Shown one piece after another: positions 32,759-52,378 of a DNA stretch of 64,000 bases (positions are counted from its first letter, which is position 1; each line of letters opens with the position of its first letter). Location: the NCBI RefSeq assembly GCF_000420485.1, contig NZ_ATVA01000015.1, positions 186,001-250,000 of the forward strand, given 5' to 3'. The notes beneath the pieces were generated by a model. It was not told the DNA's origin and did no database searches. It saw only the letters and a program-made list of their open reading frames with translations. This DNA comes from Paucidesulfovibrio longus DSM 6739. Lineage in GTDB: Bacteria > Desulfobacterota > Desulfovibrionia > Desulfovibrionales > Desulfovibrionaceae. The translations under genes were made by a program, and so were the position numbers.

Positions 32759-35458
32759 TCAGTCCTCCTTTCCCCGTCCGTTGTTCGGGCGCGGCGCGGG
32801 GCGCGGCACTCCCGCTGCGCGCGCCGCGATTCCAGCGAGATCGCGGCGCATTTCCGCCCCTGCCCGCGCGGCTTCGTCCGGGTCGCCCATGATCATGTCG
32901 AGCTGGCGGGTGTGGACCACCAGATACCCCACGACCCGCAGCAATCGGGAAAGACGGAGCTTGTCCGCGCCTTCGATGTGGGCGTAGAGCGCGTCTTCCT
33001 TGATTTCCACGATGAATCCGCGCTCTTCGAGAATGTCGCCCACGAGCCGGGCGCGGCGGGCGCGGCGCGTCAGGTCCGCTGCGCCGCCCTTGAACCGGAA
33101 TATGGCGTAGTTTTCTTCGGCGTCGTCGCTCAGCAGCGCCTCCACCGTGCAGAAATGAAACCCGTAACGGGCCTGGAGCGAACAGAATTCACGGGACACG
33201 AGAAAATAGTTGCGCACGGCGTAGGGAGAGGGAGCGCCCTCCGCCAGGGCGGGGTCCGAGGCGGAACGAACCATGACCGAAAGCAGCCCTCCGGCGTTGA
33301 CCGCGGGCGGGCCGCGCCACTCCACGGCCTGCATGCCGTCCCAGAGCGCGAGCATTGGTTCGCTGCGGACCTCGGAAATGTCCACGGTACGGGCTTTGCG
33401 CCCTTCGAAGCGCAACGGGGCAAGTCCGTCCTCCAGGTCCACGACCCAATATTGCAGCGGCACTCCGTCGATGAGACGGCGGCTGGCCCCCTTTTCCAGG
33501 CCGGCTTCGGGCTCGCGCCCGAACATCTCGCGCACGCCCATTTCATGGCAATAGCGGATCACGTCGTGCAGGGTCCGGCAGTTCGCGGGAGCAAAAGAGG
33601 AGGATTGCGGGTCCGTGAGATGCAGCGGGGCCAGCCGGTCCAGCACCCCCACGAGGCTTCGGTGCACGGCGCTGCCCTGCATCAGGCTCCGTTCCGGGGA
33701 ACGCCGGATCAGGGCGCGGACCCGGCCCGAATAGACCGTGCGGCGGTCCGCATCCACGGTGACTTCCCCGCTCCCCTCCAGCGCCGCCAGGGCGCCCTCG
33801 AGAGAAAAAAGCGCGGGCACGCCGTATTCGCGGGCCACGCTGGCGAGGTGTCCGGCCGTGGCCCCGTGTTCCGTGACCACCGCGCAGGCGCGGGAAAGCA
33901 GCGGAGCCCAGCGCGGCAGGGCGTTGACCGCCACGAGCACGGCTCGATCGGGAAAACGCAGCGCGTCCGCATCGCTGCGTACGGGCACCACGGGTCCGGC
34001 GGCAGCGCCCGGAGAGGCCGTGACCCCGCCGGAAAGCAACGGGGTCGGCAGAGACGCCCGCAACGACGCCTCCCCCGAGGCCGATTCGTCCATGGCTTCG
34101 CCGCTTTCCGCTCCGGGAACGGGGAAATGCAGGTCGCGGCACTGGAGCAAAACAATGGCCCGATCCTCGCGCACAGCCCATTCCACGTCCTGCGGCGCGC
34201 CGAAAACCCGCTCCAGCAGGAGACCTATGCCGGCCAAAGCCGCGGCCAGCTCGTCGCTCACGGCCGGAACCTCTTGCTCCGCACGGGGAAGATTCACAAG
34301 CAGCGTGCCCTCTTCCGGGTCGCAGACCGCCTTGCGCCTCTTGCGCGCGACCTCGCGGTGCAAGACCTTCCGCCCCTTGCGGGATATCACGAATCGGTCG
34401 CAGTCCGCGCTGCCGTCCACGATGGCCTTGGGCAGGCCGGGCATGGCCGCCAGGTGCAGGACGTCCGATTCCCCGTCCAGGGGGTCGCGCGTGTAGAGCA
34501 CGCCCCCGGCAGCTGCGGAAACCATCTCCATGCAGCCCACGCACATTTCCACGTCCGAGTCGCGGATGCCCCGGTTGAGGCGGTAAGCCATGGCCGACGC
34601 GCCGTATTTGCTGGCGACCACGGTCTTGTAGGCCTCGAAGAAATGTTCCGGAGCGACGTTCAGCTCGCTGTGATACTGCCCGGCAAAGGAGGCGCCCGGA
34701 GCGTCTTCCCCCAGGGCCGAAGAACGAACGGCCAGACGCAGCGGCTCCACCTGGGTGGACTGCATCCGCGTCAGGGCGGTCTCTGCATCGCGTTGCAGCC
34801 CCGGCGGAATCTCCGCAGCCAGGATCAGCGTACGGATCTCGGAACTGAGCGCATACAGCCCGGCCATGTCGTCTCCCGCCCCGATCTGAATGCGTCGATC
34901 GATCTCGTCCTGAAGTCCGCCGTGGGCCAGAAAACGGCGGCAGGCCGAGGCAGTGACCGCGAACCCGGCGGGAATGCGCAGACCGAGGCTGCGGCGGGCT
35001 TCTCCCAGGCGGGCGAGCTTGTCCCCGGTTTCCGGGGCATGGCTTCTGTCCAGGGAGTCCAAGGGCAGCACGTTGTCGCCGCGTTCCACCGCGGGCCTGC
35101 GCGAGAGGCTCTCCCCGACAGCGGCCCGCACGGCGTCCAAGGCTTCCTGCAGGCCGGAATGCGCTCCGGGGGCCATGCGCTCAAGCTGGCGGACCATCTG
35201 GAACCCCGCGGCTAGGCAGCGCAGGCTGAGCGCCCGGATGCGGGGCATTCCGTAGGGCTTGGCGCTCCGGAGCATTTCCTCCAGATCCGCCAGGGCGGCG
35301 AGGGCTTCGTGATTGGACTTGACCAGCAGCCGGAAACTGCGGCAGCGCTCGCGGTACTCGCGGCGCAGTTCCTCGGCCCGGCTGCCCTGGCCTTGCCAGC
35401 CGCCGCGCCCGCCCGCAGAGCGAAAGAAATTGCGTATGGCCAGCAACGCGGAACCCAT
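32759..35458 (-). CDS. PEP-synthase/PPDK-like protein without the TIM-barrel domain
   Basis: 899 residues. The N-terminal about 140 are helical and unfamiliar. A PPDK_N/ATP-grasp domain follows at about 145-460 (GDKLARLGEARRSLGLRIPAGF, then RLAVRSSALGEDAPGASFAG, then PQDVEWAV). Next is a PEP-utiliser phosphohistidine domain at about 470-595 whose catalytic His, near residue 536, lies in VVTEHGATAGHLASVAREYG; the usual GG before it is GA. The remaining 300 residues are not the PEP/pyruvate TIM barrel and I do not recognise them. The gene is embedded among receiver and kinase genes, so it probably does regulatory phosphotransfer rather than gluconeogenesis. Confidence 0.82.
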   Translation of the reverse strand: MGSALLAIRNFFRSAGGRGGWQGQGSRAEELRREYRERCRSFRLLVKSNHEALAALADLEEMLRSAKPYGMPRIRALSLRCLAAGFQMVRQLERMAPGAHSGLQEALDAVRAAVGESLSRRPAVERGDNVLPLDSLDRSHAPETGDKLARLGEARRSLGLRIPAGFAVTASACRRFLAHGGLQDEIDRRIQIGAGDDMAGLYALSSEIRTLILAAEIPPGLQRDAETALTRMQSTQVEPLRLAVRSSALGEDAPGASFAGQYHSELNVAPEHFFEAYKTVVASKYGASAMAYRLNRGIRDSDVEMCVGCMEMVSAAAGGVLYTRDPLDGESDVLHLAAMPGLPKAIVDGSADCDRFVISRKGRKVLHREVARKRRKAVCDPEEGTLLVNLPRAEQEVPAVSDELAAALAGIGLLLERVFGAPQDVEWAVREDRAIVLLQCRDLHFPVPGAESGEAMDESASGEASLRASLPTPLLSGGVTASPGAAAGPVVPVRSDADALRFPDRAVLVAVNALPRWAPLLSRACAVVTEHGATAGHLASVAREYGVPALFSLEGALAALEGSGEVTVDADRRTVYSGRVRALIRRSPERSLMQGSAVHRSLVGVLDRLAPLHLTDPQSSSFAPANCRTLHDVIRYCHEMGVREMFGREPEAGLEKGASRRLIDGVPLQYWVVDLEDGLAPLRFEGRKARTVDISEVRSEPMLALWDGMQAVEWRGPPAVNAGGLLSVMVRSASDPALAEGAPSPYAVRNYFLVSREFCSLQARYGFHFCTVEALLSDDAEENYAIFRFKGGAADLTRRARRARLVGDILEERGFIVEIKEDALYAHIEGADKLRLSRLLRVVGYLVVHTRQLDMIMGDPDEAARAGAEMRRDLAGIAARAAGVPRPAPRPNNGRGKED

Positions 35459-35482: not shown

Positions 35483-35851
35483 CTATGCAGTTGCGGCGGC
35501 GTCCTGAATTTTGGCGAAAAGTTCGTCAAAAGCCACGGGCTTGATCATGTAATCGAACGCTCCGAGCTGCATGCCCGTATAGGCCGATTGCGCGTCCGCA
35601 TGCCCCGTGAGCAGGATGACCTCGGTCCGCGGCAGTTGGGCCTTGATGCGGCGCAACGTCTCGATGCCGTCCAGACCGGGCATGCGCACGTCCAGCACGA
35701 CCACGTCGAAGACGTGCTCGGCGAGCAATCGCAGGGCCTGCTCGCCGCTTTCCGCCGTGGTCACGTCCACGTTGCGGCGGGCCATGCGCTTGCTCACCAG
35801 CGTGAGAAACTCGGACTCGTCGTCCACGAGCAACATGCTGATCTTCTTCAC
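35483..35851 (-). CDS. Single-domain response regulator
   Basis: Receiver of 122 residues: KKISMLLVDDESEFLT, phospho-acceptor Asp54 in VVVLDVRMPGLDG, Thr in VILLTGHAD and Lys in YMIKPV. The start is GTG at 35851, with GGGAG about 7 bases upstream; an overlapping ATG is in another frame. It sits directly before the PEP-synthase-like gene (24 bases) and may be its signalling partner. Confidence 0.9.
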   Translation of the reverse strand: MKKISMLLVDDESEFLTLVSKRMARRNVDVTTAESGEQALRLLAEHVFDVVVLDVRMPGLDGIETLRRIKAQLPRTEVILLTGHADAQSAYTGMQLGAFDYMIKPVAFDELFAKIQDAAATA

Positions 35852-35875: not shown

Positions 35876-36478
35876 TTACGCAGCCGTCAGCATTTCCTTG
35901 ACCTGCATGAGCACAGGCAGGACCGACCAGAAAATCATCAGGAACAACCCCAGTGTGGCCAGGAGCGCCAGGACCGCCTGCCACCAGCGCAGGCCGCAGG
36001 CCTTTGTCAGGCCAAACATGACCAGAAGAGCTCGAATCGGTTCGGTGATCACCTGCATCGCAGGAATCCAGGACAGGGGCATGACCGTGCCCGAAGCAAA
36101 GGCGTAGATGGACACGAGACGCCGCAAGGCCACGCGGCGGCCGAAAAACAGAGTCAGGACCAACATGTTCAGCGCGGCGAGCAGCGCCGGCAGAAGCAGG
36201 CAGTTGATCATCAGAATGCCCGCCATGGCCAGCTTGTGGCTGTAGAAGTAGGTCATGCTGACCATGGTATAAAACAGCGAGGCATACGCGAGATACTTCA
36301 GAGAATTACGATAGTTCTCATGCGTATCTTCCAGCCTGGAGAAAAACAGCCTGGGAGCACGCATCATTTCGGTCATGGTCCCGAAGAACTTCGACGTGTC
36401 CACGGTCTGCGGCGCATCCGCCTCCAGCGAGGCCCCGCTGTCCGGGCCGCATTGCAAAATCGCGCTTTCCTTGGCCAT
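35876..36478 (-). CDS. Yip1-like multi-pass membrane protein
   Basis: 200 residues with a soluble start of about 40 residues, then about five hydrophobic helices. The segment FFGTMTEMMRAPRLFFSRLE before the first helix is typical of bacterial Yip1-domain proteins. Start ATG 36478 follows GGAGG, which overlaps the stop region of the upstream small gene, so the two are coupled. It accompanies the DASS transporter and may be an accessory or regulatory membrane protein; no biochemical role can be read from sequence. Confidence 0.75.
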   Translation of the reverse strand: MAKESAILQCGPDSGASLEADAPQTVDTSKFFGTMTEMMRAPRLFFSRLEDTHENYRNSLKYLAYASLFYTMVSMTYFYSHKLAMAGILMINCLLLPALLAALNMLVLTLFFGRRVALRRLVSIYAFASGTVMPLSWIPAMQVITEPIRALLVMFGLTKACGLRWWQAVLALLATLGLFLMIFWSVLPVLMQVKEMLTAA

Positions 36479-36482
36479 GCCT

Positions 36483-36674
36483 TTATCCTCCAAAGATTTT
36501 CGACCCCTCGACCACTCCCAGCAAAAGCATCAGCACGGTGAGCACGAAGAAAAACGCGCGCTCGGTCTGCCTGGAAAAATATATTCTGCCGTTCTCGTAG
36601 TGCAGCCGCTTGACGCGTTCGGGCTTTGCTTCCGTCGACACATCCTCGATCCGGCGACTTTCGTTCTCTTGCAT
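36483..36674 (-). CDS. Small single-pass membrane protein next to the DASS transporter
   Basis: 63 residues: a charged cytoplasmic part (MQENESRRIEDVS, then ERVKRLHYENGRIYFSRQTE) and one C-terminal helix (AFFFVLTVLMLLLGVVEG). ATG 36674 has GGAGG 7 bases upstream, which fixes the start; longer in-frame starts overlap the transporter end. It lies 77 bases after the transporter and 4 before the Yip1-like gene. Likely a small transporter-associated subunit, by position only. Confidence 0.7.
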   Translation of the reverse strand: MQENESRRIEDVSTEAKPERVKRLHYENGRIYFSRQTERAFFFVLTVLMLLLGVVEGSKIFGG

Positions 36675-36750
36675 CTCGATTCCTCCCCGTGGTTGCAGCG
36701 GGCTTGAACCCGGCGACCCGCAAAGGGCCGCCGGGGTTGTTTCAGCAGGG

Positions 36751-38604
36751 TCAGAAGCCTGGCAGGCCGCCAAACCCCCGTGTCGCCCAGTAGACCGCCG
36801 TCATTCCGATCAGCACGATGTTGGCGATGAACCACATCGGTATGCCGACCCGCAGGTAGTCCTTGGGCTCCAGATAACCGGAGGCGTACACGATGGCGTT
36901 CGGCGGGGTGCCGATGATCAGGCAGTACGCGAAGGACGAGGCGATTGCCGTGGACATGGCCATGAACGGGAGGTACGTCGTGCCGGGATGCACGATGCCC
37001 GCCATGTTCAGCGTGATGGGTCCGACTGCGGCCGCTGCCGGGCCGTCCGCCATAAGGTTCGTGAGCACCGCGGTCAGGCCGTTCGACGTGAGCATCAGCG
37101 GCAGCCCCTGGTCCATGCCCAAGGGAGCCATGAATTCGACCACGGTCTTGGCCATCCAGTACGCGGCGCCGGTCTTGTCCAGCACGCGGCCGAAGATGAT
37201 CGCGCCGGCATACAGCCAGACCACGCCCCAATCGACCTTCTCCTGATAGTCGCGCCAGTTGACCACGCCCGCCAGCAGGTAGGCCACCGCACCGGCCACC
37301 GCGATGACGCCGATGCCCAGACGCACGGGGTAGATGCCCATCTGGAAGAACGCCTTTTCCGTGAACCAGCCCCAGACCATGACGATGAAGATCACCAGTG
37401 CCCAGATCTGATGCTTGTTCCAGCTGCCCATCTTGCCGATCTCGCTCTCCAGGTGCTTCATGGCCGGAGCAAGCGAGGTGATTCTCGGCTTGAAGCGCCA
37501 GTTGACCATGACCCAGGTGATGGGGATCATGATCAAGAGGAACGGGAAGCAGTAGGTGACCCACTGGAAGTAGCCGATATCGAATCCGAACATGTCGGTC
37601 AGGTAGGTCATCATGATGACGTTGCGGGCGCCGCCGGAAGGAGCGCCGGGACCGCCGATGTTGCAGGCCATGGCGATGGCGATCATCAGCATCTTGGCCA
37701 GTTCGGGGTCTTCCTTGATGTCGTCGGTAAGGCTGTTCTGATAGAGCAGCATGCCGATGGGCAGGAACATGGCCGCCAGGGCGTGGTCCGAGATGAACGC
37801 GGCCAGGGGCGTGATGATCAGGAAGAAGATCAGCGTGATCCAACGCACGTTGGGCACGGCGAGCTTCTTGAACATCATCAGGCACACGCGCTTGTCCACG
37901 CCTGTCTTGACGAATGCCGCCGCGAACATGAGCGAGCCCATGATGAACCAGCAGGCGTCGTCCCAATATAATCCGGCGACTTCACGACGCGAGACCACGC
38001 CCGTGAAGACCAGGATCAAACCGATGCAGAAGGCCACGCCCGGCAGGGGCATGCATTCCGTGACGAAACAGAAGACCACGAACACGACCATGGCCATGGC
38101 GACCTTGATCTGCCAACTGCCCTTGTCGGCCTTGGCGCGATCCTTCTCCGAGAGCTCGTCGTAGTTCAACCGGTGCATGCGCACGTCGAACGCCGCCTGG
38201 AGCGTCGCGCGGTACTGTTCTTCGGTCAGATTCTGATCGACATATTCCATGGCCCGCTTCAGGTTGGCGCCGTCAACGGGGATCTTGTACTGCTTGCACC
38301 ACTTGGCGTCGCGCTTGAGGAAACGCTTCTTGGAAAGCGCGCCCATGCGCATGTTCTGTTCCATCATCTGGCACGTGGCCAGCTGCCACTGATCCAGATT
38401 GGACGGCTTTTCCTGGAACAATTCCTGCGCCAGGAAAGAGACGACCGCTGCGGGGCCGACCTGATACTGCGTGCCGACCTTCTGCATGCTCTTCGGGGTG
38501 GGCAGCGCCAGGATGACCGCAAACAGGACCACCGGAATAACCAAGAGCTTCCAGTTGACGTACTTGTCATACCCGGTAGCTTTTCTCTTCGTAGCTTCAG
38601 CCAT
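36751..38604 (-). CDS. DASS/SLC13-type anion transporter with soluble insert
   Basis: 617-residue membrane transporter of the divalent anion:sodium symporter family (dicarboxylates, sulfate and the like). The helical core and SNT-like motifs are visible: IGGPGAPSGGARNVIM in the first half, and LTNLMADGPAAAAVGPITL with IIGTPPNAIVYASGYL in the second. Unusually, about 110 mainly charged residues lie between the first helix (about 20-37) and the second (near 165), predicted outside the membrane. The transporter is preceded by receiver genes, so the signalling genes may control or sense its substrate. The substrate is not deducible. Confidence 0.88.
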   Translation of the reverse strand: MAEATKRKATGYDKYVNWKLLVIPVVLFAVILALPTPKSMQKVGTQYQVGPAAVVSFLAQELFQEKPSNLDQWQLATCQMMEQNMRMGALSKKRFLKRDAKWCKQYKIPVDGANLKRAMEYVDQNLTEEQYRATLQAAFDVRMHRLNYDELSEKDRAKADKGSWQIKVAMAMVVFVVFCFVTECMPLPGVAFCIGLILVFTGVVSRREVAGLYWDDACWFIMGSLMFAAAFVKTGVDKRVCLMMFKKLAVPNVRWITLIFFLIITPLAAFISDHALAAMFLPIGMLLYQNSLTDDIKEDPELAKMLMIAIAMACNIGGPGAPSGGARNVIMMTYLTDMFGFDIGYFQWVTYCFPFLLIMIPITWVMVNWRFKPRITSLAPAMKHLESEIGKMGSWNKHQIWALVIFIVMVWGWFTEKAFFQMGIYPVRLGIGVIAVAGAVAYLLAGVVNWRDYQEKVDWGVVWLYAGAIIFGRVLDKTGAAYWMAKTVVEFMAPLGMDQGLPLMLTSNGLTAVLTNLMADGPAAAAVGPITLNMAGIVHPGTTYLPFMAMSTAIASSFAYCLIIGTPPNAIVYASGYLEPKDYLRVGIPMWFIANIVLIGMTAVYWATRGFGGLPGF

Positions 38605-38653: not shown

Positions 38654-39553
38654 TCAGTTCGCGATGATGCGGCCTATTTCGAAGAACATCTCCTGCTCCC
38701 GGACCACGCCGACGACCTTGCCGCCGCGGGCCACGGCCAGACGCCGGGCGCGCTGCGAGAACATGGTCTCGGCGATTTCCATGAGGTTCGCGGTCGCGTC
38801 GATCACGGGCGGGCAGTCGGACATGATGTCCGCAACCTTCTTGTCCGCGATTTCCTGGATCCGCGAGGTGAAGAGCCCCTGCCAGAACATGGTCGAATAC
38901 TGCAGGCTGTCCGCCATGGACGGCTTGGGCACGCTCAGGTAGGCGGGCCGCGCAGCCGCGATCAGATCCATGGGGCTGAGGATGCCCGTGAGGTCGCCGG
39001 TCTTGTCGAAAACAAGGATGGAGCGGTGGCCGGTGTCCATAAGTCGGTCGGTGGACACGAGCTGCGTTCCGAGTTCCTTGAGCTTGACGATGGCCGAACG
39101 CACGGTTTCGTCCTCGGTGATGGTGGCGTAGTTGGTCAGCGGAATCATGATTTCCTCCGCCAACCGCTCTCGGTAGGGTTCCTGCTTGGCCGCGGCCACC
39201 GCGTCCCGGATCTTCGCCGAGAGCAGGTCCACGTCGCAGGGCTTGTTCAGGTAATCCGTCGCGCCGGAGTCGAGAGCCTCCTTGGCGCTGGGAAGCGCGC
39301 CGTGTCCCGTGAGCATGATCACGGGAACGTCGGCATCGATTTCCTTGATCTTTTTCAAGGTTTCGTGCCCGTCCATCCCTTCCATCTTCACGTCGAGGAT
39401 GACCACGTCGGGCTTTTCGCTCATCTTGACCAGGGCTTCCTCGCCGCTGGCCGCCATGACGGTCTCGTACCCCTTGCGTTCCAGAATCTTGGCCGTGGTG
39501 GTGCGAAAACGTTCCTCGTCATCAACCATCAATACTTTTATATTGATTGACAT
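38654..39553 (-). CDS. Response regulator with CBS-domain pair output
   Basis: 299 residues: a receiver domain (KVLMVDDEERFRTTTAK, phospho-acceptor Asp54 in VVILDVKMEGMDG, Lys in LNKPCD) followed from about residue 130 by two CBS motifs (IMIPLTNYATITEDETVRSA and VADIMSDCPPVIDATANLME). CBS pairs bind adenine nucleotides, so the protein could join phosphorylation to energy state. ATG 39553 is preceded by GGAGG at 5 bases. It lies 20 bases after the first receiver gene and 49 before the transporter. Confidence 0.9.
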   Translation of the reverse strand: MSINIKVLMVDDEERFRTTTAKILERKGYETVMAASGEEALVKMSEKPDVVILDVKMEGMDGHETLKKIKEIDADVPVIMLTGHGALPSAKEALDSGATDYLNKPCDVDLLSAKIRDAVAAAKQEPYRERLAEEIMIPLTNYATITEDETVRSAIVKLKELGTQLVSTDRLMDTGHRSILVFDKTGDLTGILSPMDLIAAARPAYLSVPKPSMADSLQYSTMFWQGLFTSRIQEIADKKVADIMSDCPPVIDATANLMEIAETMFSQRARRLAVARGGKVVGVVREQEMFFEIGRIIAN

Positions 39554-39572
39554 CAGTACCTCCTTTTGGGCG

Positions 39573-39989
39573 TCAATCACCTCTGACGACATTCCGACTC
39601 CTGGCTAAGTGTATTTTTTCCTCGAGCTTCTTCCTCCTTTCAAACGCCTCTTCCGACTTGCTCAACAGGCTCTTCATGCTCACAGGCTTGATCAGATAGT
39701 CTGCCGCGCCGAGCTGGATGCCTTCCACCGCGGATTCCAGGGCGGCGTGCCCCGTAAGCATGATCACTTCAATCATGGGGTCTATTTTCTTGATTTCCGT
39801 CAGCACCTTGAGTCCGCCCATTCCCGGCATCTTGATGTCGAGAAAGACGACGTGCACCGTTTCGGACTCCAGAAGCCGAAGCGCTTCCTCGCCGCTGGAC
39901 GCGGTGAGCACGTCGATGCCGATCTTGGAGAACAGCTTTTTGGTCGTGTAGAGGAGACGTTCCTCGTCATCCACAATCATGATTCTCAT
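39573..39989 (-). CDS. Single-domain response regulator, first gene of the sigma-54 operon
   Basis: Receiver of 138 residues: MRIMIVDDEERLLYTTKKLF, phospho-acceptor Asp51 in VVFLDIKMPGMGG, Thr in VIMLTGHA, Lys in LIKPVS, and a charged helical tail. The upstream region holds a -24/-12 promoter at 40108-40123 and three TCGTGC repeats. It is the nearest receiver to the kinase at 40311-42050, a likely partner. Confidence 0.92.
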   Translation of the reverse strand: MRIMIVDDEERLLYTTKKLFSKIGIDVLTASSGEEALRLLESETVHVVFLDIKMPGMGGLKVLTEIKKIDPMIEVIMLTGHAALESAVEGIQLGAADYLIKPVSMKSLLSKSEEAFERRKKLEEKIHLARSRNVVRGD

Positions 39990-40107
39990 AGCGACTCTTG
40001 TTGTTGCTGCCTTTGGGCTGACGCCTCTGCCGGGGATCACCCTTTGCCGCTCGCCTTTCGCAATTCTCGCAAACCCGCACGGCGACCGCCTCGATGCACA
40101 GAGACAA

Positions 40108-40123
40108 AGCAAGCCATGTGCCA
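40108..40123 (-). promoter_or_regulatory. Sigma-54 (-24/-12) promoter of the receiver/transporter operon
   Basis: The minus strand reads TGGCACATGGCTTGCT, i.e. TGGCACA-N4-TTGCT, with GG and GC exactly 10 bases apart. It matches the sigma-54 consensus (TGGCACG-N4-TTGCW) at all but one defined position. Transcription would start near 40096, leaving a leader of about 105 bases before the gene at 39989. An AT-rich segment lies upstream (40124-40155). Confidence 0.8.
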
Positions 40124-40161
40124 TGATTTTTCTTATACATTTTAAGTGTTTATTCGCGCAA

Positions 40162-40226
40162 TCGTGCAAAAACGCCATGCCCGACATACAGGCCGATCGT
40201 GCGGACGGTTTTCGCAGCTCTCGTGC
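40162..40226 (-). promoter_or_regulatory. Three TCGTGC repeats, candidate enhancer sites
   Basis: TCGTGC occurs at 40162-40167, 40197-40202 and 40221-40226 (minus strand GCACGA), 40-100 bases upstream of the -24 box and separated from it by AT-rich DNA. That is the usual layout of activator enhancer, bend and sigma-54 promoter. Whether an activator binds there is inference. Confidence 0.35.
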
Positions 40227-40244
40227 AGGCGGGAGAGTGGGCGC

Positions 40245-40281
40245 AAAAAAGCCCGCCGGAACGCGACTGGTTCCGACGGGC
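40245..40281 (-). terminator. Terminator after the dCache kinase gene
   Basis: A 12-bp stem with one G-U pair (40270-40281 with 40251-40262, GCCCG..CGGAAC) is followed on the minus strand by six T (40250-40245). It ends the kinase unit 30 bases after its stop. The rest of the 320-base gap (39990-40310) holds the promoter and repeats described separately. Confidence 0.85.
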
Positions 40282-40310
40282 CGGGAGGGGGCCGAATACT
40301 GCAAAAAACG

Positions 40311-42050
40311 TTATTTCGTTGGCCTGGGCAGACGTACCGTAAAGGTCGTTCCGACGCCCTTGGTGCTCCGCACGTCCATCTGCCCGCCCATGCGGTCCAC
40401 GATGCCGTGGCAGACCGAAAGCCCCAGCCCGGTGCCCTTGCCCACGGGCTTGGTCGTGAAGAACGGGGTAAAGATGCGTTCCATGTTTTCCGGGTTGATG
40501 CCGGAGCCGTTGTCCCGAACGTCGATGCCGACCATGCCGTCCTCGCCGAGACTGCAAGACACGGTCACCAATCCGCCGCCTTCCGGATGCCGCTCCTCCA
40601 CGGCGTGCAGGGCGTTGTTCAGCAGATTGAGCAACACCTGCTGCACCTGGCCGGGATCGGCCCGAACGAAAAGAGGACGATCCAGCGGCTCCAGTTCGAG
40701 GCGGATTCCGTTTACCGCGGCTTTTTCCTCGATCATGCCCACGATTTCCGGCAGGAAGGAACGGACGTCCATATCCTGCACCACGGATTCCCCCTGGCGG
40801 CCGAACTTGAGGATCGCTTGCGTGATCTTTGCGCAACGGCTGATCTGAATGCGCAATTGCTCCAAGGAGGTGCGCAATTCTTTGCTCTCCTCGCCCTCTT
40901 TGAGGTCATTCTTTTCGACCATGTCGTTCATGACCATTTCCATATAGGAAAGATCGCTCTTCATGACCTGCAAAGGGTTGTTGATTTCATGGGCGATGCC
41001 CGTGGTCATCTCTCCCAATTCCGCAAGCCGTGCCGCTCGGTAGAGATGATTGCGAAGGGTTTCCTTCTCGAGGAATACGCGACTGAGCGCGTGCTCGATG
41101 TGGGTGCTGAGCATGAAGGCGAGCGCGGCGATGAGCAGGCCGCCGAACAACAGGATGGCCGCGATCCAGCTCGCCGCCTCCTGAAGCCCGGCAAAGGCGT
41201 CGTCCTTCTCCTGTCGGACCACGAGCAGCCATTTGCCGTCGTTGATCCAGGATGTGCAATACAGATATTCCTTGCCGTCGGCATCTTCGGCCGCATAGAC
41301 GTGCACCGCCCGCTTCGGCAGCGCTCCCAGCTTCGGCAGGTCGGATTGGGACAAAAGCGGGGCCTTGGAACGCGGCTCGGTCTGATAGCGGCCCTCCGCG
41401 TCGAGCACCCAGGCCTCGCCCGTGACGCCCAAACGGATGCCCTCCACCAAACCGCTGAAGCGATGCGGATCCATCGTGGCCCGCAACACGATCCGTCCTG
41501 CGGCCTCCTGGCGCGAAATTGCAATGACGAAATGCGGCTCGTTGCGATATCCCAGGAAAACGTCGCTGACGTGGTATCCTTTTTCCAGGGTGGCCGTGTA
41601 CCAGGGAGCCTTGGAATAATCCTTGCCCAACAGGTCGTACGGTCCGGCATACGCCTGCTGCACGCCGTTCGGCGCGATAAAGCCGAGATCGACGAAGGCG
41701 GGACAGCTCCGGCGCAGATGCCGCAAGCGGTTTTCCAGGTCGGACTGGTTTTCGAGTCCACGCCCTCCATCGGTATCGAGCAGCATTTCAAGATCGGCCC
41801 GACGTTCTTCGAGATAGGAGTCGATCATGCGGCCATGATCCTCGACGATGCGGCGCATGGCTCCCACGGTGGAACTCTTGACCGAATTGACGAAGGCGGC
41901 CTGCCCGACCAGCAACACGAACAGAAACGGCACCACCGGGGCGATGACCATCACCGCCAGCAGCCGCTTGCGGATTCCGCGAAACGGATTGCCCTCCCCC
42001 GTGGAGTCCTGCCCCCCTTTTCGTTGATCCTTTCCTTTGTCCTTGACCAT
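40311..42050 (-). CDS. dCache sensor histidine kinase
   Basis: 579 residues: a short cytoplasmic start, helix 1 near 28-52, a double-Cache periplasmic domain to about 290, helix 2 near 292-314, then a DHp domain with LGEMTTGIAHEINNPLQVM (His near 352). A full HATPase domain follows (LNLLNNALHA, RDNGSGI, FTPFFTTK, GKGTGLGLSV). The periplasmic segment KGYHVSDVFLGYRNEPHFVI nearly repeats that of the kinase at 31116-32756. Transcribed from a sigma-54 promoter at 42197-42212 and ended by its own terminator. Divergent from the AAA+ regulator, which may control it. Confidence 0.94.
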   Translation of the reverse strand: MVKDKGKDQRKGGQDSTGEGNPFRGIRKRLLAVMVIAPVVPFLFVLLVGQAAFVNSVKSSTVGAMRRIVEDHGRMIDSYLEERRADLEMLLDTDGGRGLENQSDLENRLRHLRRSCPAFVDLGFIAPNGVQQAYAGPYDLLGKDYSKAPWYTATLEKGYHVSDVFLGYRNEPHFVIAISRQEAAGRIVLRATMDPHRFSGLVEGIRLGVTGEAWVLDAEGRYQTEPRSKAPLLSQSDLPKLGALPKRAVHVYAAEDADGKEYLYCTSWINDGKWLLVVRQEKDDAFAGLQEAASWIAAILLFGGLLIAALAFMLSTHIEHALSRVFLEKETLRNHLYRAARLAELGEMTTGIAHEINNPLQVMKSDLSYMEMVMNDMVEKNDLKEGEESKELRTSLEQLRIQISRCAKITQAILKFGRQGESVVQDMDVRSFLPEIVGMIEEKAAVNGIRLELEPLDRPLFVRADPGQVQQVLLNLLNNALHAVEERHPEGGGLVTVSCSLGEDGMVGIDVRDNGSGINPENMERIFTPFFTTKPVGKGTGLGLSVCHGIVDRMGGQMDVRSTKGVGTTFTVRLPRPTK

Positions 42051-42196: not shown

Positions 42197-42212
42197 AGCA
42201 ACGGCCATGCCA
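42197..42212 (-). promoter_or_regulatory. Sigma-54 (-24/-12) promoter of the dCache kinase gene
   Basis: The minus strand reads TGGCATGGCCGTTGCT, i.e. TGGCATG-N4-TTGCT with GG and GC 10 bases apart, one mismatch to the sigma-54 consensus. Transcription would start near 42185, about 135 bases before the kinase ATG. It lies in the 295-base divergent region shared with the AAA+ regulator at 42346; no other feature was recognised in that gap. Confidence 0.78.
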
Positions 42213-42345: not shown

Positions 42346-44958
42346 ATGTTCAGGAACGCGGACCCCGACGCCCCCCGACGAGAACGCTCCTTTGTCCGAT
42401 TCTTCCACTCGCTGGACCTCAAAGCCAAACTGATGGTCACGGTGATTCCCTGCCTGGTGATCATCCTGATGACCACCGGCTACGTAACCTACCGACTTTC
42501 AACAGACTATATGGATATCGCCCTGGAGCGCAACGTGCGCATCCGGGATCTGGCCCAGGCCAACGCCGTGGAACGCTTTCTGGACCAGTGCCGCCGCGAC
42601 CTGCTCATGGCCTCGCGCCAGCCCCTGGACGAGGCGGCCATGCTCAAGACGCTCGAAGACCTGAGAGAATCCGGCGGCATCCAATATTCCGAATTCGCGT
42701 ATCTTTCCCCGGATGGAGACGACCATATCCTGCTCGTGGTCAATGACGGACGGACATACAGCGTGCCCGGATCGAGCATCAACCACATCCGGCCCAACCC
42801 GTTGCTGCATCTCGACCGGCTGCCCCGGCTTTCCCCCGGGGAAGTCCATCCCTCGGACATTCTGGACATGGAGTATCCCTTCCCCACGGAGCAGAACGCC
42901 AATCACCGCATCGCGGAAAAGATCATCCGTTTCGTGACCCCCTACACCGCGCCCGGCAAGACCGCTCCGGGCTTCCTTTCCCTGGCCGTGCGCGCCTCGG
43001 AGCTGCGGAACATCCTATCGCTCTACAACTCCCGCCAATCCCCGCTCTGGGGATATCCCCGGTCCGACGAGGTGCGCTTCAGCTTCCTCTTCGACAACCA
43101 GGGCTGGATTCTCTTCCAGTCCGGCGACATGGACCATCCCGAAGCCGATTTGACCACGTTCCTGGCCCGCTCCGGCTACAAGGGCACGCTGGGCCGGCCC
43201 GACCTGGCCTGCGCCTTCCGGCCGAGCACCGCCCATGGCGACTATTGGGAAATGGTCGCCGAGGGCGCGGAAGGCCGCGCGGGCATCGCCAAGCTGCGCG
43301 ACGACGGGCACAACTCGGCAAAAGTCGCCAACTATTATCTTTCCTGGGCTCCGGTGAGATTCAAGCTTTCCCCGGACGCCCCTCCCATCGTCTATGCCGG
43401 TGCCGCCTACGTGGACCGGAGCCAGCTCGCCGTGACCGCGGGATACAAATATCTCGACGTCATGCTCGTCATCACCCTGGGCAGCATCCTGCTGCTTTCC
43501 CTGCTCGTCTATGCCATGAGCCGACTGGCCATGGGCCCCATCTTCCGGCTGACCCGCGCGGTTTCCGGAATGCAGGCCACAGGCAGGCTCCAGCGCCTTG
43601 AACTTCCCAAATCCGGCTACGAGACCGCGCGCCTCCAGGCCGCCATCAACGGCATGATCGACCGCATGCGCGACCAGATGGAGCAGATCCGGCAAAAGGA
43701 CGAGACCATCGAGCACGTCAACCTCAAGGAACGCGCCCGGCTGGAAGGCGATCTCGCCATGCTGGAGGAAGTGCTGCAAGGAGACATGCCCGAAATCGTT
43801 GGAGTCGGACCGCGCATGGCCCTGTTCAAGGGCGACATCGCCAAGGCCGCGCAGGTGGACGTGGACGTGCTGATCATGGGCGAGACGGGCACGGGCAAGC
43901 AGCTCGTGGCCGAGGCCATACACAGCCACAGCAGGCGCGCGGACGCCACCTTCATCTCGCTGAACTGCGGCGCGCTCGACGAGAACCTGCTCCTCGACGC
44001 CCTTTTCGGCCATGTGAAAGGCGCGTTCAGCGAGGCCAAGTCCGACCGCAAAGGAGCCTTTCTGGAAGCCGACGGCGGCACGCTCTTCCTGGACGAAATC
44101 CAGTCCGCGTCCGCCAAGGTCCAGCAGGCCCTGCTCCGGGCCATCGCCATGCGCAAGATCAAGCCGCTGGGACAGGATACGGAAATCGACGTGAACGTGC
44201 GCCTGATCTGCGCCACCAACGCCGATCTCAATGAAATGATCGAGGAAGGACTGTTCCGCGAAGATCTGTACTATCGCCTCAAAGTCCTGGCCATTCAGAC
44301 ACCGGCCCTGCGCGAACACCCGGAGAGCATCCCCGCCTTGGCGCTGCACTACCTGCGGCAGGCCGAGCAGCTCGTGAACCGCGAGGGACTGAGCCTGAGC
44401 AAGGGCGCGCTGCGCAAGATGACGGGCTATCACTGGCCCGGAAACATCCGCGAGCTGATCAACAGCATCACCCGCGCCGCGGTCATGGCAGAGTCCGATG
44501 TGATCCAGGCGGACGAGATCCGGCTGGAAATCGAGGGCTTGAGCTACGTCTCCCCTCTGGATCAGAGCGTGTCCAAAGATGCGCTTCCTTCCACGGGCGA
44601 GGAGCCGATGCTTGCCGAGGAGGATCGCGAGACGCCCGACGAGCCGGACTACGCCGCAGCCGAGCCCAAACACAGGGAGCCGGCCGGACGCTCTGCGCCA
44701 GCGGAACAGGAAAGAAGCGGAACGCCCCAGTCGCAGCCGGAATTGAACCGCCGGCAAAGACGCGCCCTGCCCCTGATCCGCAAGCGCGGAACCATCACGC
44801 GCGGAGACTATCAGGATATCGTGGGCGGCAAGCTGGCCTCGCGGACGGCCATCTACGACCTTCAGGATCTCGTGAAGAAAGGGGTGCTCATCAAGGAAGG
44901 ACGCGGTCCGGCCACCAAGTATGTAATCAACCCCAAGGCGCGGCTTCTGGCGGGCTGA
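42346..44958 (+). CDS. Membrane-bound AAA+ regulator of the sigma-54 activator type with winged-helix C-terminus
   Basis: 870 residues. Helix 1 lies near 29-50, a periplasmic Cache-like sensor about 50-368, helix 2 370-393, a HAMP-like linker and coiled coil to about 480, and an AAA+ domain about 485-720. Walker A is GETGTGKQ (about 512-519), Walker B TLFLDEI, and YHWPGNIREL is the sensor II region. The loop that should read GAFTGA is GAFSEA (559-564). Instead of a Fis-type helix-turn-helix, an acidic linker leads to a winged-helix-like domain (about 802-870: GTITRGDYQDIVGGKLASRT). ATG 42346 is chosen for GGAGG 9 bases upstream; GTG 42301 is the alternative. It probably senses an external ligand directly. 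Confidence 0.88.
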   Translation: MFRNADPDAPRRERSFVRFFHSLDLKAKLMVTVIPCLVIILMTTGYVTYRLSTDYMDIALERNVRIRDLAQANAVERFLDQCRRDLLMASRQPLDEAAMLKTLEDLRESGGIQYSEFAYLSPDGDDHILLVVNDGRTYSVPGSSINHIRPNPLLHLDRLPRLSPGEVHPSDILDMEYPFPTEQNANHRIAEKIIRFVTPYTAPGKTAPGFLSLAVRASELRNILSLYNSRQSPLWGYPRSDEVRFSFLFDNQGWILFQSGDMDHPEADLTTFLARSGYKGTLGRPDLACAFRPSTAHGDYWEMVAEGAEGRAGIAKLRDDGHNSAKVANYYLSWAPVRFKLSPDAPPIVYAGAAYVDRSQLAVTAGYKYLDVMLVITLGSILLLSLLVYAMSRLAMGPIFRLTRAVSGMQATGRLQRLELPKSGYETARLQAAINGMIDRMRDQMEQIRQKDETIEHVNLKERARLEGDLAMLEEVLQGDMPEIVGVGPRMALFKGDIAKAAQVDVDVLIMGETGTGKQLVAEAIHSHSRRADATFISLNCGALDENLLLDALFGHVKGAFSEAKSDRKGAFLEADGGTLFLDEIQSASAKVQQALLRAIAMRKIKPLGQDTEIDVNVRLICATNADLNEMIEEGLFREDLYYRLKVLAIQTPALREHPESIPALALHYLRQAEQLVNREGLSLSKGALRKMTGYHWPGNIRELINSITRAAVMAESDVIQADEIRLEIEGLSYVSPLDQSVSKDALPSTGEEPMLAEEDRETPDEPDYAAAEPKHREPAGRSAPAEQERSGTPQSQPELNRRQRRALPLIRKRGTITRGDYQDIVGGKLASRTAIYDLQDLVKKGVLIKEGRGPATKYVINPKARLLAG

Positions 44959-50830: not shown

Positions 50831-52378
<1,548 letters not shown>

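Follow-up and report, generated by a model that had tools for sequence, protein, structure and literature searches.

Can an activator of the sigma-54 type, in which the L1 loop departs from the GAFTGA signature, still serve sigma-54 polymerase, or does it act on another target? The question is raised by a gene of Paucidesulfovibrio longus DSM 6739 at 42346-44958 (+ strand) of a 64,000-nucleotide stretch of DNA, here called the window (positions 186,001-250,000, + strand, of contig NZ_ATVA01000015.1, assembly GCF_000420485.1). A preliminary description of this sequence placed there a one-component transmembrane (TM) AAA+ regulator with the loop GAFSEA and, after an acidic linker, a winged-helix-like domain in place of the usual Fis-type DNA-binding domain. 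It proposed that the protein either remodels sigma-54 with the changed loop or acts elsewhere, for instance as an anti-activator. The open reading frame (ORF), its coordinates and its loop were recovered as described (870 amino acids, GAFSEA at 44020-44037); a GGAGG ribosome-binding site lies 5' of the ATG start, and the ORF was judged real. The protein is very probably a membrane-bound, one-component enhancer-binding protein of the type of DVU0151 from Desulfovibrio vulgaris Hildenborough, activating sigma-54 transcription of the divergent kinase/response-regulator/DASS operon.

The acidic L1 loop across the regulator family

Matches to the regulator at E <= 1e-100 were present in 165 of the 288 genomes of the window's bacterial family (its own genome included), in 37 of 99 genomes of relatives, in 15/22 genomes of another family and in 1/8 of a third. 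At E <= 1e-95, a sample of 297 genomes from across the phylum gave matches in 26, ten of these belonging to the window's own family. Judged from the sequences, the regulator is conserved far beyond chance. Thirty named relatives obtained through two peptide patterns came from Desulfovibrio, Desulfovibrionaceae, Desulfobacterales/Desulfobacteraceae, Desulfacinum and unplaced Deltaproteobacteria, and the window's genome itself carries a second copy with the loop GAFTEA (L085, G000:C12:413000-430500; 46% identical). From at least 187 distinct matches, 166 members were examined, namely the window's regulator, L046-L208, L018 and L035; the 21 excluded were close repeats or matches truncated at contig ends, and were set aside with their loops unseen. 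For the first 45 members the loops were seen early; all 45 were kept, with L001-L030 replaced by longer or the same stretches.

Across these 166 members the loop read GAFTEA in 67, GAFSEA in 61 (window included), GAFTDG in 12, GAFSDA in 12 and GAYTEA in five, with nine singletons. The fifth residue was glutamate in 137, aspartate in 26 and glycine, glutamine or alanine in one each, so that it was acidic in 163/166; the same held for 74/76 clusters at 70% identity and 42/44 at 55%. The preliminary description had asked whether GAFSEA itself is fixed among homologues: the acidic residue nearly is, and the exact hexamer is not. It had also named homologues of the same layout with an intact GAFTGA as evidence against it, and these amount to one marginal case (L072, genome G016); the window's regulator, with GAFSEA, falls outside the exact signature as a loop variant. 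On the FastTree tree L072 sits among acidic-loop members on a long branch. Because long branches were flagged in this tree (among them L072 and L079), the position of any one member, including this one, is unsure. From sequence, glycine may have been regained in L072.

The window's genome encodes 24 further activators of the sigma-54 type, which have glycine at the fifth loop position in 20 cases, histidine in two, and serine and aspartate in one each; the variant loops among them are GAFTDA (L216), GAFTHA (L210), GSFTHA (L226) and GAFTSA (L232). Further differences surround the loop. Residue 551 is aspartate in all 166 family members and serine in 21 of these 24 activators, residue 552 is A, T, S or V in 164/166 members and glutamate in 20/24, and A571 is found in every member and in none of the 24. 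Lysine or arginine occupies position 565 in 154/166 members, and the remaining loop positions are conserved across the family. As read from these alignments, the acidic loop is the rule of the family and not a defect.

The machinery behind the loop appears intact by the same kind of evidence. The residues predicted to bind and hydrolyse ATP in Walker A, Walker B, sensor I and the arginine fingers (K518, D583, E584, N625, R638, R644 and R702) were kept in 45/45 members, the count having been made in the first 45.

Divergent promoters and the target of the loop

A -24/-12 site pointing away from the regulator gene, with a score of at least 10, was found in 162 of the 166 members; such a site lay on the forward strand in 14/166, and 12.7% of 1660 random windows had one. 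At a score of at least 12 the counts were 145/166 divergent, six forward and 6.0% random. With one row for each 55%-identity cluster, 42/44 had a divergent site at >=10 (forward 4/44) and 36/44 at >=12 (forward 0/44). The main scoring of the 166 members left the C at -12 unscored; when it was scored, 36/45 members reached 12, as did 1/45 on the forward strand and 3.1% of random windows. Consensus C stands at -12 in 126 of the 137 members with a glutamate loop. In the window's own 3.7-Mb genome there were ten strict matches to TGGCAYGNNNNTTGCT, the site TGGCATGGCCGTTGCT upstream of the divergent operon among them, and none in the reversed control; the chance of a strict site in the window's intergenic strand is about 0.0004. 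One sigma-54 gene (PF04552) was found in the genome, shared with the GAFTGA activators. The altered loop is thus found next to sigma-54 promoters of the ordinary type, and the same cell has GAFTGA activators as well.

Since divergent -24/-12 sites occur family-wide and the window has the strict TGGCATGGCCGTTGCT site, the regulator's most likely role is to activate transcription of the divergent operon by sigma-54 polymerase. This favours the first of the two functions proposed in the preliminary description, sigma-54 action kept with a changed loop, for which the 45/45 ATPase residues also speak. The proposal draws directly on the domain layout (with sensor and winged helix taken from predicted structure), the intact ATPase residues, the conserved acidic loop, the conserved divergent site and the transporter-type neighbour operons. 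A small periplasmic molecule would bind the double-Cache domain, and the AAA+ domain would receive the signal across the membrane by way of the second TM helix and a HAMP-like linker. Anchorage upstream of the divergent promoter would come from the winged helix, and the AAA+ domains, presumably assembled as a ring, would hydrolyse ATP while their GAFSEA L1 loops, if the glutamate loop makes a productive contact, remodel the sigma-54 polymerase at TGGCATGGCCGTTGCT. The kinase/response-regulator/DASS-transporter operon would thereby be switched on.

Several points weigh against this reading. NorR with glutamate at G266, the second glycine of GAFTGA, is non-functional (PMC2941729), and 137/166 family members carry glutamate there. 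VfmH, with the loop GAFTDA, failed to pull down RpoN, a result left open by its authors (PMC10714721). The DVU0151 regulon is a prediction (PMC4641369), and in the accessible portions of the literature we found no biochemical test of a DVU0151-type protein. Our scoring matrix was built from the sigma-54 consensus, a score of 10 is a lenient threshold (reached in 12.7% of random windows), and four of the 166 members have no divergent site at that score. Finally, no convincing enhancer site was seen in the window's intergenic region, where the best match to the TTGCGC/GCGCAA dyad treated below has four mismatches, a level reached by 86% of shuffles.

How an acidic loop would work on sigma-54 is a separate matter. 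It is possible, and we put it forward tentatively, that the L1 contact was remade in this branch of activators and has come to require an acidic residue, in most members glutamate, instead of tolerating one; the changes at 551, 552 and 565 would be compensating, and the ring would grip sigma-54 or the -12 DNA differently from the GAFTGA activators of the same cell. If so, glutamate, inactivating in NorR, would be required in a large branch of activators.

A rather unlikely variant of sigma-54 activation, which does not exclude it, is that the acidic loop is a built-in bypass. The AAA+ domain would be free of repression by the sensor of the same chain, and the signal would instead control DNA binding, the protein level or how the ring assembles at the membrane. 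NorR has been studied with each of the 19 substitutions of G266: full constitutive activity comes with G266D and G266N, which form open complexes in vitro at lower ATPase activity and with a weaker footprint, while with Q, S, C or M the activity keeps part of its regulation (PMC2941729). The constitutive but sigma-54-competent variants, and the acidic residue fixed at the same place in 163/166 members, fit a bypass. However, the NorR effect was seen for D and N and not for E (PMC2941729), and one member of the same layout has glycine.

TyrR and VpsR are activators that lost GAFTGA and act with sigma-70 polymerase or another target. It is improbable that the regulator has likewise left sigma-54. 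The replaced second glycine would agree with this, as would the inactivity of NorR with glutamate (PMC2941729), the missing RpoN pull-down with VfmH (PMC10714721) and the presence of VpsR among the structural matches of the modelled AAA+ domain; yet the divergent sites in 162/166 members, including the glutamate-loop members with C at -12, and the conserved rest of the loop argue for sigma-54. More improbable still is an anti-activator role, in which the protein would be a decoy AAA+ subunit blocking sigma-54 or joining the ring of another activator: the altered loop is the sole point in its favour, and a decoy would not need intact ATPase residues, a sensor of its own, a winged helix and a divergent promoter. 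The second function proposed in the preliminary description thus found little support, given an acidic loop that is a family rule, an intact ATPase and a divergent site in nearly all members. A sequencing or assembly error in GAFSEA, for which nothing was found in favour, is in practice refuted by the same loop, in partly different codons, in both same-genus genomes and in the other members that share it.

Three promoter features were considered and set aside. T at -11 (149/162 sites) was rejected as family-specific because it is general in these genomes; in 20 genomes there were 79 strict sites with TTGCT (reversed control, five) and three with TTGCA (control, three). Covariation of loop and promoter was suggested by the 12 GAFTDG members, all of which have A (four) or T (eight) at -12, whereas with other loops C is found in 142/150 sites at >=10. 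It was rejected: these members form one clade, the loop changes once on the FastTree tree and the independent-pairs test amounts to one pair. The thirteenth row of this clade, L068 (GAYTDG), has a weak site only, with C, and non-C at -12 also occurs with other loops (for example in L073, L082, L119, L122 and L060). Promoters without C at -12 exist anyway, since TGGCAYGNNNNTTGDT sites are in excess over the reversed control (61 in 20 genomes versus 25). Strict -24 elements with TTGAT at -12 were seen four times in the window's own genome (for example G000:C17:77590-77605 and G000:C19:3864-3879). From these sequences, sigma-54 promoters of this group may naturally include TTG[AGT]T as a variant at -12. 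Lastly, the dyad TTGCGC-N4..8-GCGCAA, with at most one mismatch, was found in 40/162 upstream regions and 1.2% of shuffles, the motif having been derived from the same sequences; because of this origin, and because the window shows no visible copy, we do not propose a binding site.

Protein layout, divergent operon and neighbouring genes

The features of the regulator and of its predicted target operon are given in Table 1. The single chain runs from a TM helix through a periplasmic sensor and a second TM helix to a sigma-54-type AAA+ domain, an acidic disordered linker and a winged helix, and Pfam found no receiver domain in it, as in the DVU0151-type layout. The one-component transmembrane architecture described earlier is borne out by hydropathy (hydrophobic segments at about residues 22-51 and 368-400, either side of the sensor), Pfam and AlphaFold2.

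Table 1. Coordinates of the regulator, its parts and the predicted target operon in the window
Feature	Position	Strand	Basis
One-component transmembrane sigma-54-type activator, DVU0151-like, 870 amino acids	42346..44958	+	
First TM helix, about residues 29-47	42430..42486	+	Hydropathy; helix in AlphaFold2 model
Predicted periplasmic double-Cache sensor, about residues 50-366	42493..43443	+	AlphaFold2 (modelled alone), Foldseek, VIA
Second TM helix, about residues 369-391	43450..43518	+	Hydropathy; helix 367-412 in AlphaFold2 model
HAMP-like linker, residues 391-443	43516..43674	+	Pfam HAMP 15.2 bits, under cut-off 25
Sigma-54-type AAA+ domain and lid, residues 484-735	43795..44550	+	Pfam, catalytic residues, fold match
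L1 loop GAFSEA instead of GAFTGA, residues 559-564	44020..44037	+	
Acidic linker, predicted disordered, residues 731-796	44536..44733	+	pLDDT <50; charge count
C-terminal winged-helix domain, putative DNA-binding, residues 797-866	44734..44943	+	Model secondary structure; conserved core
Predicted sigma-54 promoter TGGCATGGCCGTTGCT of divergent operon	42197..42212 (reads 42212-42197)	-	
Predicted target gene 1: dCache histidine kinase	40311..42050	-	Pfam dCache_1, HATPase_c; HisKA just under cut-off
Predicted target gene 2: receiver-domain protein (longest ORF; true start probably further in)	39573..40304	-	Pfam Response_reg, ORF residues 108-215
Predicted target gene 3: receiver and CBS domains, DNA-binding domain not found by Pfam	38654..39592	-	
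Predicted target gene 4: DASS-family sodium:sulfate/dicarboxylate symporter	36751..38604	-	Pfam Na_sulph_symp, NCBIfam dass

Sigma54_activat (PF00158) matched residues 487-650 of the regulator (2e-60), with AAA_lid_14 also matched, and the usual landmarks are in place: Walker A at 512-519, Walker B at 579-584, arginines 638/644 and WPGNIREL at 697-704. The AlphaFold2 model of the whole protein had a mean predicted local distance difference test score (pLDDT) of 75.8 and a predicted template modelling score of 0.46, and its L1 loop region (558-566) lay below a pLDDT of 50. The modelled AAA+ domain (481-735) matched 1ojl, which we take to be ZraR, with a VIA Z of 28.6 and a root-mean-square deviation (rmsd) of 1.8 over 251 residues. 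With 1ojl, FlrC, NtrC1, LuxO and PspF it shares both fold and catalytic residues (Z 19.5-28.7; matched by Foldseek too).

By sequence, the sensor region had no Pfam match. A model of this region alone, built from 27 sequences (its own and 26 relatives), reached a pLDDT of 87.0 and predicts a double Cache fold: a long N-terminal helix carrying two Cache lobes, placed between the two TM helices. By VIA the model matched TlpQ (6fu4; Z 18.0, rmsd 3.7, 245 residues) and TlpA (6e0a; Z 18.0, rmsd 3.4, 246 residues), and its best Foldseek E against double-Cache ligand-binding domains was 1.8e-9. This fold is common to the dCache chemoreceptors TlpQ, TlpA and TlpC (Z 16.8-18.0); these, however, are only 9-13% identical to it, and the output of our regulator is an AAA+ activator.

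At the C-terminus, Pfam found no match to the Fis-type HTH_8, which is usual, although not universal, in sigma-54 activators. The claim that a winged helix replaces it after an acidic linker is upheld at the level of the model. Residues 731-800 hold 16 D/E and six K/R, and residues 802-861 are predicted as three helices (802-814, 819-826 and 832-844) and a beta hairpin (strands 848-851 and 858-861) at a pLDDT of 82-87, a winged helix by the secondary structure of the whole-protein model. Its core is strongly conserved in the family (RTAxYDLxxLVxxGLL...GxGPxTRY). Sequence searches for this domain gave sub-threshold Pfam matches only and weak PDB matches, the best by profile being a Fic family protein (E 0.04).

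The divergent operons of the 166 members were of three kinds: 103 included a TSUP (TauE/SafE) permease, 24 were led by a dCache-type histidine kinase (eight of these with a DASS gene inside the flank covered) and ten combined a CBS protein with a DASS symporter; to 29, many with only 1.5 kb of flank, no kind was assigned. Operon genes were chosen by a crude ORF-plus-BLAST script, and the kinds were named from a Pfam scan of one representative per gene cluster. The window's operon is of the kinase-led kind. The second copy, L085, lies divergent to an operon with a TSUP permease and may be a closer counterpart of DVU0151 than the window's regulator. Because the neighbouring operons carry transporters, the ligand is likely a small anion or organic acid.

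After the DASS operon come a single receiver domain (35486-35851, - strand) and an 899-residue PPDK_N/PEP-utilizers protein (32762-35458, -), a gene order matched near several relatives (for example L046, L047 and L055). Between the symporter and this receiver lie a 96-residue ORF of no Pfam family (36483-36773, -) and a Yip1-like membrane protein just under the Pfam cut-off (35876-36493, -). Elsewhere in the window, a second sigma-54 activator with a GAF domain, GAFTGA and a Fis helix-turn-helix (50831-52378, +) directly follows a gene pair that presumably encodes something like an indolepyruvate ferredoxin oxidoreductase.

Comparison with known systems

The closest described relative is DVU0151, a single-component regulator with GAFSEA and a long N-terminal region of unknown sensing type (Kazakov 2015, PMC4641369). 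Alone among the regulators listed there it lacks a Fis domain, and its orthologues have a winged-helix match; it is divergent to a sigma-54 promoter, and its predicted target, DVU0150-DVU0146, is filed as transmembrane transport. The same paper counts GAFSEA and GAFTDA among the variants expected to keep activity, and places TSUP-type transporters, substrates not known, among sigma-54 targets (PMC4641369). The window's regulator shares the loop, winged helix, layout and divergent sigma-54 promoter of a transport operon with DVU0151, whereas its neighbour is a kinase/response-regulator/DASS operon; its placement as a DVU0151-type regulator rests on layout, loop and neighbourhood.

The loop, the winged helix, the layout and the divergent sigma-54 promoter are thus already in print through DVU0151. 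What is added here is how large the family is and how nearly the acidic loop residue is fixed in it, together with a promoter and transporter neighbours that are conserved, a sensor predicted to be a double Cache, and a glutamate loop that contrasts with the NorR result. In the literature searched, GAFSEA and DVU0151 were found in Kazakov 2015 only, and searches for GAFTEA, GAFTDG, GAFSDA and GAFTDS returned nothing relevant. By a term search, sigma-54, NtrC, enhancer and Desulfo- are all absent from the main text of a survey of transmembrane transcription regulators (PMC10269533). In more than 160 natural sequences, the best-studied contact of sigma-54 activation is altered in one nearly fixed way beside promoters of the usual kind, and the family makes the real needs of the GAFTGA loop directly testable. 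It would also provide sulfate reducers with a membrane-bound, kinase-free path from a periplasmic signal to sigma-54 transcription.

A natural acidic fifth residue is also found in DVU2106 (GAFTDA; PMC4641369), a proven sigma-54 activator that activates the sigma-54 orp promoters in E. coli (PMC3897727). DVU2106 differs from the window's regulator in its Fis-type DNA-binding domain (PMC4641369) and in having aspartate, not glutamate. NorR is likewise a sigma-54 AAA+ activator, and its acidic variant G266D is compatible with open-complex formation; unlike the window's regulator, it has a GAF sensor and is inactive with the glutamate that is the norm in this family (PMC2941729). Taken together, the aspartate loop has experimental precedent, while for the glutamate loop the counter-evidence from NorR stands against strong genomic evidence in the family.

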